Shown here piece by piece: positions 298 through 6,249 of a stretch of DNA of 16,212 nt; positions within the stretch are counted from its first letter, which is position 1, and each line of letters opens with the position of its first letter. The position numbers were made by a program, and so were the translations under genes. Source of the stretch: Nitrospinota bacterium (GTDB lineage: Bacteria; Nitrospinota; Nitrospinia; JACRGO01); NCBI GenBank assembly GCA_016212295.1, contig JACRGO010000098.1, positions 1-16,212 of the forward strand, in the 5' to 3' direction. The notes beneath the pieces were generated by a model that saw nothing but the letters and a program-made list of their open reading frames with translations, was not told the DNA's origin and did not search any database.

Positions 298-2139
298 ATG
301 GGATTTTTCAACACATTGTTAAAAAATAAGATTTGGCTCCTTATCGCGTTAGCCCTTTCCGTGTGGACAATAGGGCAGACGGGGTTCGGGGGCGGTTTTT
401 TCCCGCCGGATTCGAGTTATGCCAATGAAGCGGCCGCCCCTGCCGGAGGTGGAGAGGCCGGAGCAGCGGTGAAAGAGGAATCTCCTTATCCTCCCGCGCC
501 TAAACTGGCGGAAAAAGATTATCCCCGGCACGGCGGCTTCAACAGCCGCGTGGCTGTATGGATCGTGGCCCAGCTCCATCTGTACTTCGCGGCCTTCGTC
601 CTTGGCGTGCCCATCTTCGTTCTTATAATTGAATTGATCGGCTTCCTGGGAGGCGACGAGCGGTACGACAAGATGGCCTATGAATTCATAAAGATCGCGA
701 TGACCGCCTTCTCCCTCACCGCCAGTTTCGGAGGGGTCCTAGCCTTCATGCTCATTGCCTTTTACCCGGATTTTTTCAAATACATGGCCGGCATCTTCGG
801 CGACGTCATGATCATTTACGCCATCCTGTTCTTCGGGGAGAGTTTCTGTCTCTATGTTTACTACTATGGATGGAGTTCCATGAACGACGGCGGCAACATG
901 AAATGGGTGCATCTGACCATAGGACTGATGTTGAATGTGTTCGGCATGACCCTGATGGTGCTGTCCAATTCCTGGGCCACCTTCATGATGGCCCCTTCCG
1001 GCATCTCCGAGACCGGCGTTTTTCAAGGGAATGTTTGGGCTTGCATAAGGGGGGCTCTGTGGAATCCGGTTAATCTCCACCGTTTCATTGCGAATATCGC
1101 ATACGGCGGTTCCATAGTAGGCGCATACGCGGCCTATAAGTTCATCAGCTCCAAATCCAAGGAAGAAAAGGCCCATTACGACTGGATGGGGTACACGGCG
1201 AATTTCATCAGCATCTTCGGGCTTCTGCCCCTTCCATTCGCGGGCTACTGGCTGACGAAGGAAGTTTACTCCTATAGCCAGCAGATGGGGATCACCCTCA
1301 TGGGCGGGGTCTTCGCATGGCTTTTTATTATCCAGGCGGTGTTGATCGGCGCGATATTTCTTTCCTGCAACTACTATCTGTGGTGCGGCATGGGCCGGTC
1401 GGAAGGGGCGAAACGCTTTGTCCCGTATGTTAAATATATCGCCGGGGTGGTGGTGACATGCTTCCTGATTTGGTTCACGCCGCATACGCTTGTGATGACG
1501 TCCAAGGAAATCAATTTCATAGGAGGCACTCATCATCCGGTCCTTGGTTTTCTTGGGGTCATGTCAGCAAAGAACACGGCTGTCAACATCATGATCCTGG
1601 CCACCTTTCTTAGTTTTTCGCTTTACAAGAGAAGCAATATCGAACCCACCGTGTCCTGGGCGCCTTTGGGTAACGGGCTCGTAATGGCGCTTTTCGTTGC
1701 CGGGGCCGCGAACATTATCTGGCTGGGCGTCTACGGCTATCTGATTCCGGCCAGCGTCAGGATCGGCCTCTCTGTTCCGCAGGTCTGCACCACCCTAGTG
1801 GTCATAGTGACCTGTTCGCTCATAGAGGCGTTCATGTTTAAAAATTCCAGGACCATAGGCGAGATGGAATGGGGTAAAATGCCGGTCAGGAGCCAATACT
1901 CTCTCTTTATTCTGGCGGTTTCATTTACTTGGCTGATGGGGCTTATGGGCTATTGCCGCTCCGCCATCCGCCAGCATTGGCATGTGTATACTGTTTTCAG
2001 GGACCAGTCGGAGGGCGCTTTTACCCCGACGCTTGGGTACGCCGCGAATATGGTCACTACTACCGTGGTCATCTTTATGGCCTTGGTGATATTCATTTTC
2101 TGGTTAAGCAGCTTCGCCTCTAAAAAGGCCGCTCACTAA
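298..2139 (+). CDS. Cytochrome bd-like oxidase, subunit I-type membrane protein
   Basis: A 613-residue multi-pass membrane protein (about 13-14 hydrophobic segments) related to CydA, the heme-bearing quinol oxidase subunit. By motif alignment, H94 in QLHLYF matches the heme b595 ligand H19 of E. coli CydA. H261 in NLHRFIA matches the b558 ligand H186, and M330 or M335 is a candidate for M393. E181 in FFGESF matches E107, but I see no counterpart of E99. The canonical GRQPW box is replaced by a degenerate IRQHWHVY. An extra N-terminal helix (about 12-30) and an Ala/Gly/Pro-rich linker (about 42-75) precede the usual first helix. H396 and the pair H412-H413 lie in a membrane-proximal segment. 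GGGAG at 285-289 supports the start. It heads a four-gene operon with c-type cytochromes, and no CydB follows. Bd-like oxidases of this kind are known from Nitrospira. Whether it reduces oxygen or reacts with quinol is inference. Confidence 0.85.
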   Translation: MGFFNTLLKNKIWLLIALALSVWTIGQTGFGGGFFPPDSSYANEAAAPAGGGEAGAAVKEESPYPPAPKLAEKDYPRHGGFNSRVAVWIVAQLHLYFAAFVLGVPIFVLIIELIGFLGGDERYDKMAYEFIKIAMTAFSLTASFGGVLAFMLIAFYPDFFKYMAGIFGDVMIIYAILFFGESFCLYVYYYGWSSMNDGGNMKWVHLTIGLMLNVFGMTLMVLSNSWATFMMAPSGISETGVFQGNVWACIRGALWNPVNLHRFIANIAYGGSIVGAYAAYKFISSKSKEEKAHYDWMGYTANFISIFGLLPLPFAGYWLTKEVYSYSQQMGITLMGGVFAWLFIIQAVLIGAIFLSCNYYLWCGMGRSEGAKRFVPYVKYIAGVVVTCFLIWFTPHTLVMTSKEINFIGGTHHPVLGFLGVMSAKNTAVNIMILATFLSFSLYKRSNIEPTVSWAPLGNGLVMALFVAGAANIIWLGVYGYLIPASVRIGLSVPQVCTTLVVIVTCSLIEAFMFKNSRTIGEMEWGKMPVRSQYSLFILAVSFTWLMGLMGYCRSAIRQHWHVYTVFRDQSEGAFTPTLGYAANMVTTTVVIFMALVIFIFWLSSFASKKAAH

Positions 2140-2149
2140 GGAGGAATGC

Positions 2150-2992
2150 ATGGTTAATTTCCTTAAAATAATCGTTTTCAGCTTGGTTCTCATGTTCTGT
2201 TATTCCGGCTTCGCGAATTACGCCATTCCGGTTATGATTCCGGAACCGCCGCCAAAGGAGGCTGTGATCTCCGGGGAAATGTCCATGGAGGATTTTATCG
2301 CCTTGGGAGGTTCCATTTTCAACGGGAAAGGCACTTGCACCCTGTGCCACAATCCGGTTGGCGGCAGGGCGCCCCTGCTTGAAGGGGTCGGGGCAAGGGC
2401 CGCTGAAAGAATTAAAGACGCGCGTTACAAAGGCAAGGCAACCAATGGCGGAGAATATATACATGAATCCATGGTTAACCCTTCGGCCTTTGTTGTCAGC
2501 GGTTTCGGCAAACCTGGCACAAACGACACCGTAAGCCCAATGCCGGATATCAGCAAGGGATCCATTGGACTTAATGAAGGTGAACTGAATGCGGTAATAG
2601 CGTACTTGCAATCTTCCTCAGGCGTGGAGGTCACGGTATCCATTCCCAAGGGAGGAGAGGCAGCGGCATCCAAGGGCAAAGAGGCGCCGGCCGCTCTTTC
2701 GAGCGCGGCAACCGCTGAAGAGGCCATTAAAAAACACGGATGCGGAATGTGCCACAAGGTTCTGGCCGAGGAAGGCGAAATGGGGCCGTCCTTGAAGGAG
2801 ATAGGGAAGGTGGCCCAGTCCAGGGTAAAGGGTATGTCCGCGGATGACTATATCCGAAAGTCCATCCTGAAGCCCAATGATTTCGTGGCGCCGGGATTTG
2901 ATCCAGACATGATGCCGGGGGATTTCGGCGAGAAGATGACAGCCAAGGAATTGGAAATGATTGTGTCCTTTTTGAAGGAATCAAAGGGGTAA
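2150..2992 (+). CDS. Diheme c-type cytochrome, membrane-anchored or secreted
   Basis: A 280-residue protein with an N-terminal hydrophobic segment (about 5-22) that acts as signal or anchor, so the rest is periplasmic. Two heme c attachment motifs are present, CTLCH at 63-67 and CGMCH at 198-202. Each is followed by a likely methionine ligand in an MP context (M131 and M254/M255). The two halves (about 45-162 and 188-280) share the order heme motif, YI..S....P..FV..GF, MP, EL...I..L, which points to an internal duplication of one cytochrome c domain. The gene starts 10 bases after the oxidase stop. Its Shine-Dalgarno AAGGAGG (2138-2144) overlaps that stop codon, indicating translational coupling. 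The likely role is electron transfer to or from the bd-like subunit. The exact partner is inferred. Confidence 0.88.
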   Translation: MVNFLKIIVFSLVLMFCYSGFANYAIPVMIPEPPPKEAVISGEMSMEDFIALGGSIFNGKGTCTLCHNPVGGRAPLLEGVGARAAERIKDARYKGKATNGGEYIHESMVNPSAFVVSGFGKPGTNDTVSPMPDISKGSIGLNEGELNAVIAYLQSSSGVEVTVSIPKGGEAAASKGKEAPAALSSAATAEEAIKKHGCGMCHKVLAEEGEMGPSLKEIGKVAQSRVKGMSADDYIRKSILKPNDFVAPGFDPDMMPGDFGEKMTAKELEMIVSFLKESKG

Positions 2993-3047
2993 GGCTGACG
3001 CGAAAATGGCGTTTTTAAAGAGCGTTGACTATAAGGAGACCTAAAGT

Positions 3048-3809
3048 ATGAAACTCATTCAAGCCGTAATTGCCATATTGGCGGGATATACGATTCTCTC
3101 GTACGGCATCCCCTATCTCGGAAGCATGCTGCATCACGGCACATGGCCCGTGGTCCCTGTCAGCCTGATGAAGATTTACATGTTCTTCGTGGTGATGGGG
3201 GTCCTGGCGGCCATGACTTTCGACGAGGAGACAAAGGAGGGTCTCATGGCCCCCATACGCTCCGTTTACGGAAAGCCTTCAATGGGACCGGTAAGGCTGG
3301 CGGTTATTTTGCTGGTGGCCGTTGCCGGAGCCGGGATAACTTACCAGAGCATTAAGCCGTCATTTGAGGCGCCTGTTGAGCTCAGGTCCATTCACCCCGC
3401 TCCTCCATCCACCATCAACGTTTTCAAGAAGAGTTTTAATCTTTTGACGCTGACTAACCCCTACAGGGAAGACAAGGAACACTTCGCGGAAAACGTGAAG
3501 CAGGGAGGGGTTGTTTATTTCAAGAATTGTTTTTACTGCCATGGCGACAAACTGGACGGCAAGGGCCATTATTACAATGGATTTTTCCCCTTGCCAGCGA
3601 ATTTCCAGGACGTAGGGACTATAGCGCAACTTCAGGAATCTTTCCTTTTCTGGAGAATTTCCACCGGCGGACCAGGCTTGCCCAAGGAAGGCGCGCCCTG
3701 GCTTTCCGCCATGCCGATCTGGCAGCATTTTCTTTCCGAGGAAGAGGTTTGGAAGGTTATTCTCTTTCTTTATGATTACACGGGCCGATCGCCAAGGACT
3801 TTTGAATAG
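3048..3809 (+). CDS. Membrane-anchored monoheme cytochrome c
   Basis: A 253-residue protein with three predicted transmembrane helices (about 4-22, 38-58 and 80-101) followed by a C-terminal cytochrome c domain. The single heme motif is CFYCH at 161-165, and M222 in SAMPIW is the likely distal ligand. The C-terminus (EEEVWKVILFLYDY) has the closing helix typical of class I cytochromes c. The leader before the start contains AAGGAG about 8-10 bases from the ATG. The gene lies 55 bases after the diheme cytochrome and 12 before the NxrC-like gene. It would place a periplasmic heme c on a membrane platform beside the bd-like core. I do not recognise a named family for the membrane half. Confidence 0.85.
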   Translation: MKLIQAVIAILAGYTILSYGIPYLGSMLHHGTWPVVPVSLMKIYMFFVVMGVLAAMTFDEETKEGLMAPIRSVYGKPSMGPVRLAVILLVAVAGAGITYQSIKPSFEAPVELRSIHPAPPSTINVFKKSFNLLTLTNPYREDKEHFAENVKQGGVVYFKNCFYCHGDKLDGKGHYYNGFFPLPANFQDVGTIAQLQESFLFWRISTGGPGLPKEGAPWLSAMPIWQHFLSEEEVWKVILFLYDYTGRSPRTFE

Positions 3810-3821
3810 GGGAATCTAAAA

Positions 3822-5342
3822 ATGAAAAAACTGATATTTCTTTTTATTCCGGCCCTTTGCCTTGCTTATCTTCCATCAGTTGTTCATGGGGCCGCCGGGA
3901 ACGCCGAAAACGGCAAAAAGGTTTATGAGAAGCGTTGCTGGTGGTGCCACGGCGAAAAGGGCGAAGGGAACGGTCCGGCCGCGGCCTTTGTGAATCCGCC
4001 GCCGCGGAGCTTTGCCGACGCGGTCTACAAATTTAAAACCACCCAGGTGGACAATTTGCCCACCGATGATGACCTCTTCCGGATGATCTCAAACGGGATG
4101 CCCGGCACTTCCATGCCGGCGTGGGCGGACATGCTGAATGAAGCCGAGCGGTGGGACGTAATTGCCCACATCAAGAAACTTGGCCAGGGCGCGTTTGAAG
4201 AATCCAAGTTCGATCCAGTTGACTACAGTGGCGAGGTCGCTTCCTCGCCTGACAGCATCGCCAAGGGCAAGGAAATCTTTCAGAAGAAAGCGGGCTGTAA
4301 TGAATGCCACGGTGAAGAAGGACGCGGCGACGGGATAAAGGCCATGAAGGACGATATTTTCGGGAAGCGGGTATGGCCCAGGAACCTGACCCAGCAATGG
4401 ACCTTCCGGGCTGGCTCCACCCCAAAAGATATTTATGCAAGGGTGACCACAGGCATTCCCGGCACCCCCATGCCTTCCTTCACCAAGGGGAATAAGACAT
4501 TGACAAATGAAGAGCGGTGGCATGTGGCAAATTACGCGGCCTCTCTCGGCGATGCGCGGAAAATGCTGAAAGAAGGAGAAAAGGTTGTAAAGGCGGTTTT
4601 CGCGGGCCAGTTTCCCACGGAAATCAACGACCCCAAATGGAATGCGGTTGAGGGCCGGGTCCTTCCCCTTATACCCCAAATCATCGCTCAGGAGCGCTTC
4701 TTTACTCCCACCAACACAACGGTCCTGGTGAAATCCGTTTTCGATAAAAACAAAATCGCCTTCCTGCTTGAGTGGGACGACCGCACAGGCAGTGTTGCCG
4801 GGGACGAAGCGGTGGAAAAGTTGAGCGAGGGCGGGGAGTTGAATCCGGACGCAATAGGCATTCAATTGCCTCAGACCATTCCGACCTCCATGCAAAAGCC
4901 GTATTTCGGGCATGGCGACAAGGAAATGGGAGTCAACATGCTCTATTGGAACGCTGGTTCCAAGGACAAAAAGGACAAGGCCGCTATTTATGACGCGGGC
5001 GGGGTTGGCAATAAGACCGAACGCCCGTCCGATAAATCCGGTTTTACGGCCACCAGCCAATACGAAAAAGGGGTTTGGAAGGTCATGATGGTGAGAGACC
5101 TTAAAACCTCCGAGAAAACCGACCTCCAGTTTGAAGAGGGGAAATTCATCCCGCTGGCCCTGGCGAATTGGGACGGCTCGAATCTGGAAAAAGGCAGCAA
5201 GCACACCATAACCACGTGGTACTGGCTGCTTCTGGAGCCCGCTGTTGGAAACGAGATATACACCTATCCTGGCGCCGTGGCATTCATATTGGTGATTGCC
5301 CAGTTTCTTTTCGCCAGGTCGCAAAGAAGGAATTTTTCTTAA
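3822..5342 (+). CDS. Diheme cytochrome c fused to an ethylbenzene-dehydrogenase gamma-like heme b domain (NxrC-like)
   Basis: A 506-residue exported protein with a signal peptide (about 1-24), two cytochrome c domains, an EB_dh-type domain (about 250-475) and a C-terminal transmembrane helix (about 484-500) ending in RSQRR. The heme c motifs are CWWCH (39-43) and CNECH (159-163), each with a downstream GTSMP or GTPMP segment supplying a methionine ligand. The EB_dh domain binds heme b in ethylbenzene dehydrogenase and in gamma subunits such as NxrC and DdhC. Here IGIQLP and the segment M369-W376 match conserved parts of that family. Known gamma subunits carry electrons for a molybdopterin alpha/beta pair, but no such pair is in this window. 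AGGGGA (3808-3813) serves as ribosome binding site and overlaps the previous stop. This is the last gene before the terminator. Confidence 0.85.
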   Translation: MKKLIFLFIPALCLAYLPSVVHGAAGNAENGKKVYEKRCWWCHGEKGEGNGPAAAFVNPPPRSFADAVYKFKTTQVDNLPTDDDLFRMISNGMPGTSMPAWADMLNEAERWDVIAHIKKLGQGAFEESKFDPVDYSGEVASSPDSIAKGKEIFQKKAGCNECHGEEGRGDGIKAMKDDIFGKRVWPRNLTQQWTFRAGSTPKDIYARVTTGIPGTPMPSFTKGNKTLTNEERWHVANYAASLGDARKMLKEGEKVVKAVFAGQFPTEINDPKWNAVEGRVLPLIPQIIAQERFFTPTNTTVLVKSVFDKNKIAFLLEWDDRTGSVAGDEAVEKLSEGGELNPDAIGIQLPQTIPTSMQKPYFGHGDKEMGVNMLYWNAGSKDKKDKAAIYDAGGVGNKTERPSDKSGFTATSQYEKGVWKVMMVRDLKTSEKTDLQFEEGKFIPLALANWDGSNLEKGSKHTITTWYWLLLEPAVGNEIYTYPGAVAFILVIAQFLFARSQRRNFS

Positions 5343-5381
5343 AGGCATTTGAAAGACAAATTTAATCAAGCATTTTAAAAG

Positions 5382-5416
5382 AGCCCATCCCGGATTTCCG
5401 GAATGGGCTTTTTTTT
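5382..5416 (+). terminator. Rho-independent terminator of the respiratory operon
   Basis: A 13-base stem, AGCCCATCCCGGA (5382-5394) with TCCGGAATGGGCT (5397-5409), has one imperfect pair and a two-base loop. It runs directly into an eight-T tract (5409-5416). It lies 40 bases after the NxrC-like stop and points the same way, so it ends the four-gene transcript and isolates the repeat-protein gene. Confidence 0.93.
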
Positions 5417-5463: not shown

Positions 5464-6249
5464 ATGGATATAAAAGAGTCCCTGCGCAATTTGCTTCAAG
5501 AAGTAGTAATGCCGGATCTCAGCCGGATCAAGGAAGAAAATGGCAAGATACTTGTCATGCTTGAGCTGACCAATAAAAGGCTGGATGACGTGAGCGTCCA
5601 TTTGGCCGACCAAAGCCGGCGGATTGATGCTGTCAGGTCTGACTTGGCCGGTAAAATTGATGAAACAAACAAGCGGATTGATGAAATCAGAGTTGAATTG
5701 ACAGGCAAGATTGATGAAACGAACAAACGTATTGATGAAGTCAGAATTGAATTGACGGGTAAGATTGATGAAGTCAGAATTGAATTGACGGGTAAGATTG
5801 ATGAGGTCAGATCTGAATTGGCTGGCCGGATTGATGAGGTCAGATCTGAATTGACTGGCCGGATTGATGAGGTCAGATCTGAATTGACGGGTAAGATTGA
5901 TGAGGTCAGATCTGAATTGACGGGTAAGATTGATGAGGTCAGATCTGAATTGACGGGCCGGATTGATGAGGTCATATCTGAATTGACTGGCCGGATTGAT
6001 GAGGTCAAATCTGAATTGACTGGCCGGATTGATGAGATCAGATCTGAATTGACGGGCCGGATTGATGGGACAAACGCGCGTTTGGACGAAATCCACCGTG
6101 ATTTAGCCAATCGCCTTGAAGGCAACAACGATAGGATAGATCGTTTTTTTGAGACCAGCGCTTCCAAGAAGGAACTCGATGCCATTGAGGGCCGAATCAA
6201 GCGCCTCGAGACCGATTTTAATTTCCTGCGGCAAAAAGTGGCTGCATGA
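5464..6249 (+). CDS. Hendecad-repeat coiled-coil protein of unknown function
   Basis: A 261-residue hydrophilic protein without signal peptide or membrane segment. Residues 1-53 are unique sequence. Residues 54-206 consist of 11-residue units of the form IDEVRSELTGK/R, with occasional 7-residue units (IDETNKR at 65-71 and 83-89, IDGTNAR at 200-206). Ten 11-mers run without interruption from 90 to 199. Residues 207-261 form a conventional heptad-like coiled coil (around RIKRLETDFNFLRQK). The mixed 11/7 periodicity predicts a long, nearly straight or slightly right-handed coiled coil. Only a weak Shine-Dalgarno (GAGAAA, 5450-5455) precedes the ATG. It sits alone between a terminator and a gene-poor region. 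The repeats resemble those of apolipoprotein-like or DUF1640/CCDC90-like proteins, but I cannot assign a function. Confidence 0.82.
   Translation: MDIKESLRNLLQEVVMPDLSRIKEENGKILVMLELTNKRLDDVSVHLADQSRRIDAVRSDLAGKIDETNKRIDEIRVELTGKIDETNKRIDEVRIELTGKIDEVRIELTGKIDEVRSELAGRIDEVRSELTGRIDEVRSELTGKIDEVRSELTGKIDEVRSELTGRIDEVISELTGRIDEVKSELTGRIDEIRSELTGRIDGTNARLDEIHRDLANRLEGNNDRIDRFFETSASKKELDAIEGRIKRLETDFNFLRQKVAA
5731..6060 (+). repeat. Tandem array of ten 33-bp units inside the coiled-coil gene
   Basis: Ten head-to-tail 33-base units begin with ATTGATGA and contain GTCAGATCTGAATTGAC or close variants. Several neighbouring units are nearly identical at the DNA level, differing mainly at the AAG/CGG codon that ends each unit. 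Because 33 is a multiple of three, gain or loss of units keeps the reading frame. Two further single units lie upstream (5623-5655 and 5677-5709), separated by 21-base units. Confidence 0.95.

Follow-up and report, generated by a model that had tools for sequence, protein, structure and literature searches.

Gene clusters that encode a bd-like oxidase, c-type cytochromes and an alternative NxrC have been described (PMC3578206, PMC6606698, PMC8026999). In the bd-like oxidases of such clusters the residues of the quinol loop are absent or replaced (PMC3578206), and Gln and Phe replacements have been published for the Nitrospinae protein (PMC8026999). The CydA-like proteins of Nitrospinota have mostly been assigned to the OR-N group, whose members are believed to use cytochrome c (PMC10839748). 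A cytochrome bd-like protein with cytochrome partners is also found in the TO_2 complex of Ca. Manganitrophaceae (PMC9040806), which differs from the locus described here in having two MrpD-like subunits where our operon has none. We analyzed a 16,212-nucleotide stretch of a Nitrospinota genome (assembly GCA_016212295.1, contig JACRGO010000098.1), below called the window, and found that four of its genes, P1 to P4, correspond to the cluster, probably of the OR-N group, that has been published for Nitrospina, Nitrospira and anammox bacteria. The initial annotation of this DNA had stated that bd-like proteins are known in nitrite oxidizers, as the clusters published for Nitrospina and Nitrospira bear out. 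The window shares with the published cluster (bd-like_3 and alt_NxrC_2 in Nitrospira) a bd-like protein in which the quinol loop is replaced, c-type cytochromes, an alternative NxrC that has a heme-b domain, a membrane helix and two motifs for heme c, and the four-gene order of complete Nitrospinia genomes. It differs in that its P1 carries His412 and His560 where the Nitrospinia proteins have Gln and Phe, a feature of the branch and not of the family as a whole, and in that its genome holds NxrAB on other contigs and yielded no second CydA-like gene.

The four genes lie on the forward strand with 10, 55 and 12 bases between them, the very spacing that the initial annotation gave. P1 (positions 298 to 2139, 613 amino acids) was identified as a bd-like (probably OR-N group) CydA-type membrane protein from a PF01654 match and an AF2 model. 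It is followed by P2 (2150 to 2992, 280 amino acids), a membrane-anchored diheme cytochrome c, and P3 (3048 to 3809, 253 amino acids), a membrane protein with a C-terminal monoheme cytochrome c, both recognized from their CxxCH motifs and hydrophobicity, and by P4 (3822 to 5342, 506 amino acids), an alternative NxrC that combines a diheme cytochrome c, a heme-b (EB_dh) domain and a C-terminal membrane helix. The strong terminator proposed earlier was recovered as a stable intrinsic hairpin at positions 5377 to 5414 of the same strand (-23.6 kcal/mol, z = -4.9, with none of 200 shuffled sequences equally stable), although a simple pattern scan made no call there. P1 to P4 are one conserved respiratory operon, and the four proteins probably belong to one complex. 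The first base of the window is also the first base of its contig, so the sequence 5' of that base is outside our view; just 5' of P1, positions 204 to 264 form an imperfect inverted repeat with arms that are 88% complementary. Beyond the terminator, positions 5464 to 6249 encode a 261-amino-acid coiled-coil-like protein with about ten 33-nucleotide direct repeats.

The five c-type hemes and the heme b domain predicted by the initial annotation were all accounted for by five CxxCH motifs and an NxrC-like domain. In an alignment of 76 sequences, P2 showed two heme c motifs, CTLCH63 and CGMCH198, and one N-terminal hydrophobic segment. P3 has a single motif, CFYCH161, an invariant M222 and three hydrophobic segments, and P4 carries CWWCH39 and CNECH159. 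Profile searches with P4 matched two cytochrome c domains and EB_dh (E = 4e-18), the NxrC-like heme-b domain covering residues 273 to 461 (positions 4638 to 5204), and hydrophobicity placed the membrane anchor at residues 479 to 497 (positions 5256 to 5312). P4 also matched Kuenenia NxrC (7b04_C, E = 9e-6) and the heme-b subunit model TIGR03477, in the latter case with a hit (E = 5e-24) that does not reach that model's cut-off.

P1 is predicted to have about 13 to 14 membrane helices, and it matched the Cyt_bd_oxida_I profile (PF01654) in its first half only (residues 83 to 326, positions 544 to 1275, E = 7e-19). An AF2 model of moderate confidence (pLDDT 65, pTM 0.66) aligned with E. coli CydA (6rx4_A) over 350 residues within the span 72 to 613, which is nearly the whole length of the protein, with a Z score of 32.1. 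The model also resembled ACIII and NrfD-like membrane subunits (Z of 19 to 21) and PsrC (Z of 15), all below the CydA match, and the NrfD resemblance may be one that holds for every CydA. Soluble and receptor folds low in the structure list were set aside, because for helical bundles such matches are close to noise. In E. coli CydA, we take H19 to be a heme ligand and E445 to be the ligand of heme b595. The residues opposite E. coli H19 and E107, H94 (codon 577 to 579) and E181 (codon 838 to 840) of P1, were invariant in 78 of 78 relatives and in 19 of 19 paralogues as well. The position of E. coli E99 was Tyr in all P1 relatives, that of E445 was not Glu in P1 in either alignment, and the quinol-loop residues K252 and E257 had no counterpart in the P1 alignments; the hhalign alignment of P1 with CydA was made in local mode with a low mact setting, and its C-terminal half is of low confidence. 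The fold match and the two invariant residues support the CydA-type core that had been claimed, without a recognizable quinol site. Relative to canonical CydAB, the CydA fold and the H19 and E107 positions are therefore shared, whereas here no CydB was found, the quinol-loop residues are missing and five hemes c are added.

Two further positions separate the window P1 from its Nitrospinia counterparts. At position 412 (H412-H413, codons 1531 to 1536) the window has His, the Nitrospinia proteins have Gln and 46 of 78 relatives have Tyr, and because of this variation the residue probably does not bind a metal; the adjacent His413 is invariant. A complete heme-copper-like metal site in P1 was discounted on this variation among His, Tyr and Gln, which makes a ligand role for H412 unlikely. 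Position 560, in the RQHWH motif opposite E. coli GRQPW (Q559-H560-W561-H562, codons 1972 to 1983), is His in the window and in 78 of 78 closer relatives and Phe in Nitrospinia. Since Gln412 and Phe560 of Nitrospinia P1 agree with the published statement (PMC8026999), we infer that the Nitrospinia protein is the published orthologue and that the reported Gln and Phe would be the residues at these two aligned positions. A phylogenetic tree joined the window P1 to the P1 clade of Nitrospinia with a support of 0.99, followed outward by the tandem paralogues, a cytochrome-fused clade and other CydA-like proteins. At two Nitrospinota loci (L162, 2864 to 11258, and L166, 634 to 6735) the CydA-like protein carries a fused cytochrome c domain and is encoded together with relatives of P3 and P4 and with antiporter-like (Proton_antipo_M) subunits, a make-up similar to that of TO_2.

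One scan of a genome collection returned 299 loci with a P1 relative. The best 80 of these (58 to 82% identity) came from Nitrospinota, Nitrospirota, Gallionella/Ferrigenium, Mariprofundus, Acidiferrobacteraceae, and alpha-, gamma- and 'delta'-proteobacterial genomes, among others. The order P1-P2-P3-P4 on one strand was kept in 56 of the 57 loci in which 4.2 kb or more of sequence follows P1, in several phyla; 52 of these were called by script, and four of the five exceptions were judged complete from tblastn coordinates. Complete Nitrospinia genomes keep the order at about 53, 33, 44 and 30% identity for P1, P2, P3 and P4, the three Nitrospinia-type genomes that were inspected (G009, G047 and G025) have the identical arrangement, and within Nitrospinota a P1 relative was present in 70 of 77 genomes and in 30 of 31 of those of high quality. 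This conservation rules out a chance operon and supports the single operon, and probably single complex, of the initial annotation, which had named a lack of conservation as the counterevidence. Its view of an uncommon gene set, in contrast, has to be given up, as the module is widespread across phyla and an equivalent has been in print since 2013 (PMC3578206). One genome, G001 (L161, 4211 to 11216), is rearranged, with P4-like, P2-like, P3-like and P4-like genes upstream of P1 and not after it. In about 22 loci there is another CydA-like gene, a paralogue of P1, and in most of these it belongs to an additional four-gene set, P1'-P2'-P3'-P4', which is encoded close by in the same direction; P1' is about 720 amino acids long and 38 to 49% identical. 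This set lies upstream in L026, L036, L039-L041, L046-L048, L050, L054, L057, L060, L061, L064, L071, L075, L079 and L080, and downstream in L063, where the contig stops within P3'.

The window genome is 90.5% complete, which makes absences from it provisional. At that completeness no CydB (PF02322) and no CydA-family gene other than P1 were detected, and the positive controls for the CydB profile were found, so a canonical CydAB with an overlooked CydB was rejected. The operon itself contains neither NxrA nor NxrB, and two NxrABC-like sets are present on other contigs (C105 and C235), one NxrA matching that of Kuenenia over nearly its full length (E = 4e-253). The earlier claim that CydB and NxrA/B are missing thus stands for CydB and, locally, for NxrA/B, but not for the genome as a whole, in which the search for nxrAB that the initial annotation had suggested succeeded. 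Six COX1-family genes were also above the cut-off.

We compared these results with 49 other module-bearing genomes. In 48 of them NxrA gave no match at E <= 1e-40, and the sole match was an 828-amino-acid relative with 31% identity. In 23 of the 49, including Ferrigenium and Mariprofundus, no CydA-family gene besides P1 was detected; these 23 are mostly draft metagenome-assembled genomes for which completeness was not given. CydB was absent from all 23 in the search that recovered its controls, and a cydB operon that includes a P1-type subunit, also named by the initial annotation as counterevidence, did not occur in either the window genome or these. Each of the 23 gave some match to the COX1 family, to which nitric oxide reductases belong as well. 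The occurrence of the module without detected NxrA, often with P1 as the sole CydA-like gene detected and without CydB, is new here, as is the retention in the window P1 of the two histidines that Nitrospinia have lost. The OR-N CydAA' O2 reductases are reportedly (Murali, 2021) proposed to need two CydA-like subunits. Our operon resembles them in its CydA superfamily membership, its lack of a quinol site, its cytochrome c neighbors and the grouping of P1 with Nitrospinia P1, and differs in that P1 stands alone in the window genome and in 23 of 49 others; without CydB in these, an obligate CydAA' pair is unlikely, and it is disfavored to the extent that mostly draft genomes allow. One Nitrospinia genome, G047, is a single contig, 97% complete, in which neither a COX1-family heme-copper oxidase nor CydB was found and whose CydA-like genes are that of the P1 module and one other. 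This agrees with the report of two Nitrospinae without any canonical heme-copper oxidase (PMC8026999).

The best explanation of these data, and one to which we would give about an even chance from the sequences, is that P1 to P4 form an OR-N (bd-like) membrane cytochrome c:O2 reductase. Electrons in the periplasm, supplied by a soluble cytochrome c or by NXR in the window organism, would enter through the diheme-c/heme-b subunit P4; P2 and P3, which are anchored cytochromes, would relay them to hemes in P1, and O2 would be reduced there. We infer both this order and O2 as the acceptor. P1 has no counterpart of the quinol-loop residues, so quinol is unlikely to be the donor; the five hemes c agree with a cytochrome in that role. 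The oxidase reading is favored by the CydA fold and its kept H19 and E107 positions, by the almost constant company of P2 to P4, and by G047, in which, on the other side, the second CydA-like protein could be the oxidase. Against it are the Tyr at the E99 position, the lack of Glu at the E445 position, and the reported presence of the cluster in the strictly anaerobic anammox bacteria (PMC3578206). The window genome and the 23 P1-only genomes carry heme-copper-family genes, and P1 is therefore not the sole oxidase candidate there.

Those anammox bacteria and those additional heme-copper-family genes speak for reverse electron transport, in which the proton-motive force would push high-potential electrons from cytochrome c (or NXR) onto quinone to serve CO2 fixation. 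This has been proposed for the Nitrospira moscoviensis cluster, the genes of which are among the 40 most transcribed (PMC6606698), and for Nitrospina (PMC3578206). It would also suit the resemblance of the P1 model to the quinone-handling ACIII/NrfD subunits and the sister proteins of two Nitrospinota genomes, with their cytochrome c fusion and antiporter-like (Mrp/Nuo) subunits. However, the NrfD resemblance is weaker than the CydA match and may be general to CydA, P1 has no recognizable quinol site, the operon has no Rieske or cytochrome b partner, and G047 would be left with no detected heme-copper oxidase or CydB, so that we regard reverse transport as possible and somewhat doubtful. Cytochrome c coupling and reverse electron flow, both put forward in the initial annotation, are thus still the two leading options.

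The NxrC-like fusion in P4 and the NxrABC sets elsewhere in the window genome could instead mean that P1 to P4 are an NXR-specific membrane anchor and electron acceptor. On a groundwater Nitrospinota contig (L169, 1 to 7241, the contig of L067), NxrA/NxrB-like, TorD-like, cytochrome c and NxrC-like genes are directly upstream of P1-P2-P3, with a 415-amino-acid protein that has no Pfam match between that operon and the module. The lack of an NxrA match in 48 of 49 module-bearing genomes, and the P1-only Ferrigenium and Mariprofundus, make such an anchor quite improbable and disfavor it as a general role. A reductase that receives electrons from periplasmic cytochromes and serves to protect the cell from O2 or NO, without conserving energy, would be compatible with heme-copper-family genes in the same genome and would parallel roles known for canonical bd oxidases (PMC10839748). 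The high transcription in normally growing Nitrospira (PMC6606698), the large and costly heme relay and the near universality of P1 in Nitrospinota all speak against it, and we consider it very improbable.

Genes that could modify heme often lie near the module. Of the 29 loci that have long flanking sequences, 18 have a gene nearby for an AhbD/NirJ-like radical-SAM protein that carries a PCP_red domain, 20 for a Usp-PCP_red protein and 14 for a protoporphyrinogen-oxidase-like (HemY-like) protein; L019, L025, L026 and L068 are among the loci with such neighbors. The radical-SAM protein, like P1, was present in 30 of 31 high-quality Nitrospinota genomes. In the window genome its gene is unlinked (L122, 6305 to 7588) and stands beside a diheme cytochrome gene. 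A literature search found no report of an association of Usp, protochlorophyllide-reductase and radical-SAM proteins. We consider it rather improbable that these linked enzymes supply the module with a specially modified heme.

The cluster is a main candidate for the terminal electron step in several nitrifiers, where it has been discussed around nitrite oxidation. Since the module is present in many iron oxidizers and in other genomes without a detected nitrite enzyme, its function probably extends beyond the oxidation of nitrite. Its occurrence in iron oxidizers and others in which NXR was not detected, often with neither CydB nor another CydA-like gene, sets the module apart from nitrite chemistry, and a simpler organism might therefore serve for its study.
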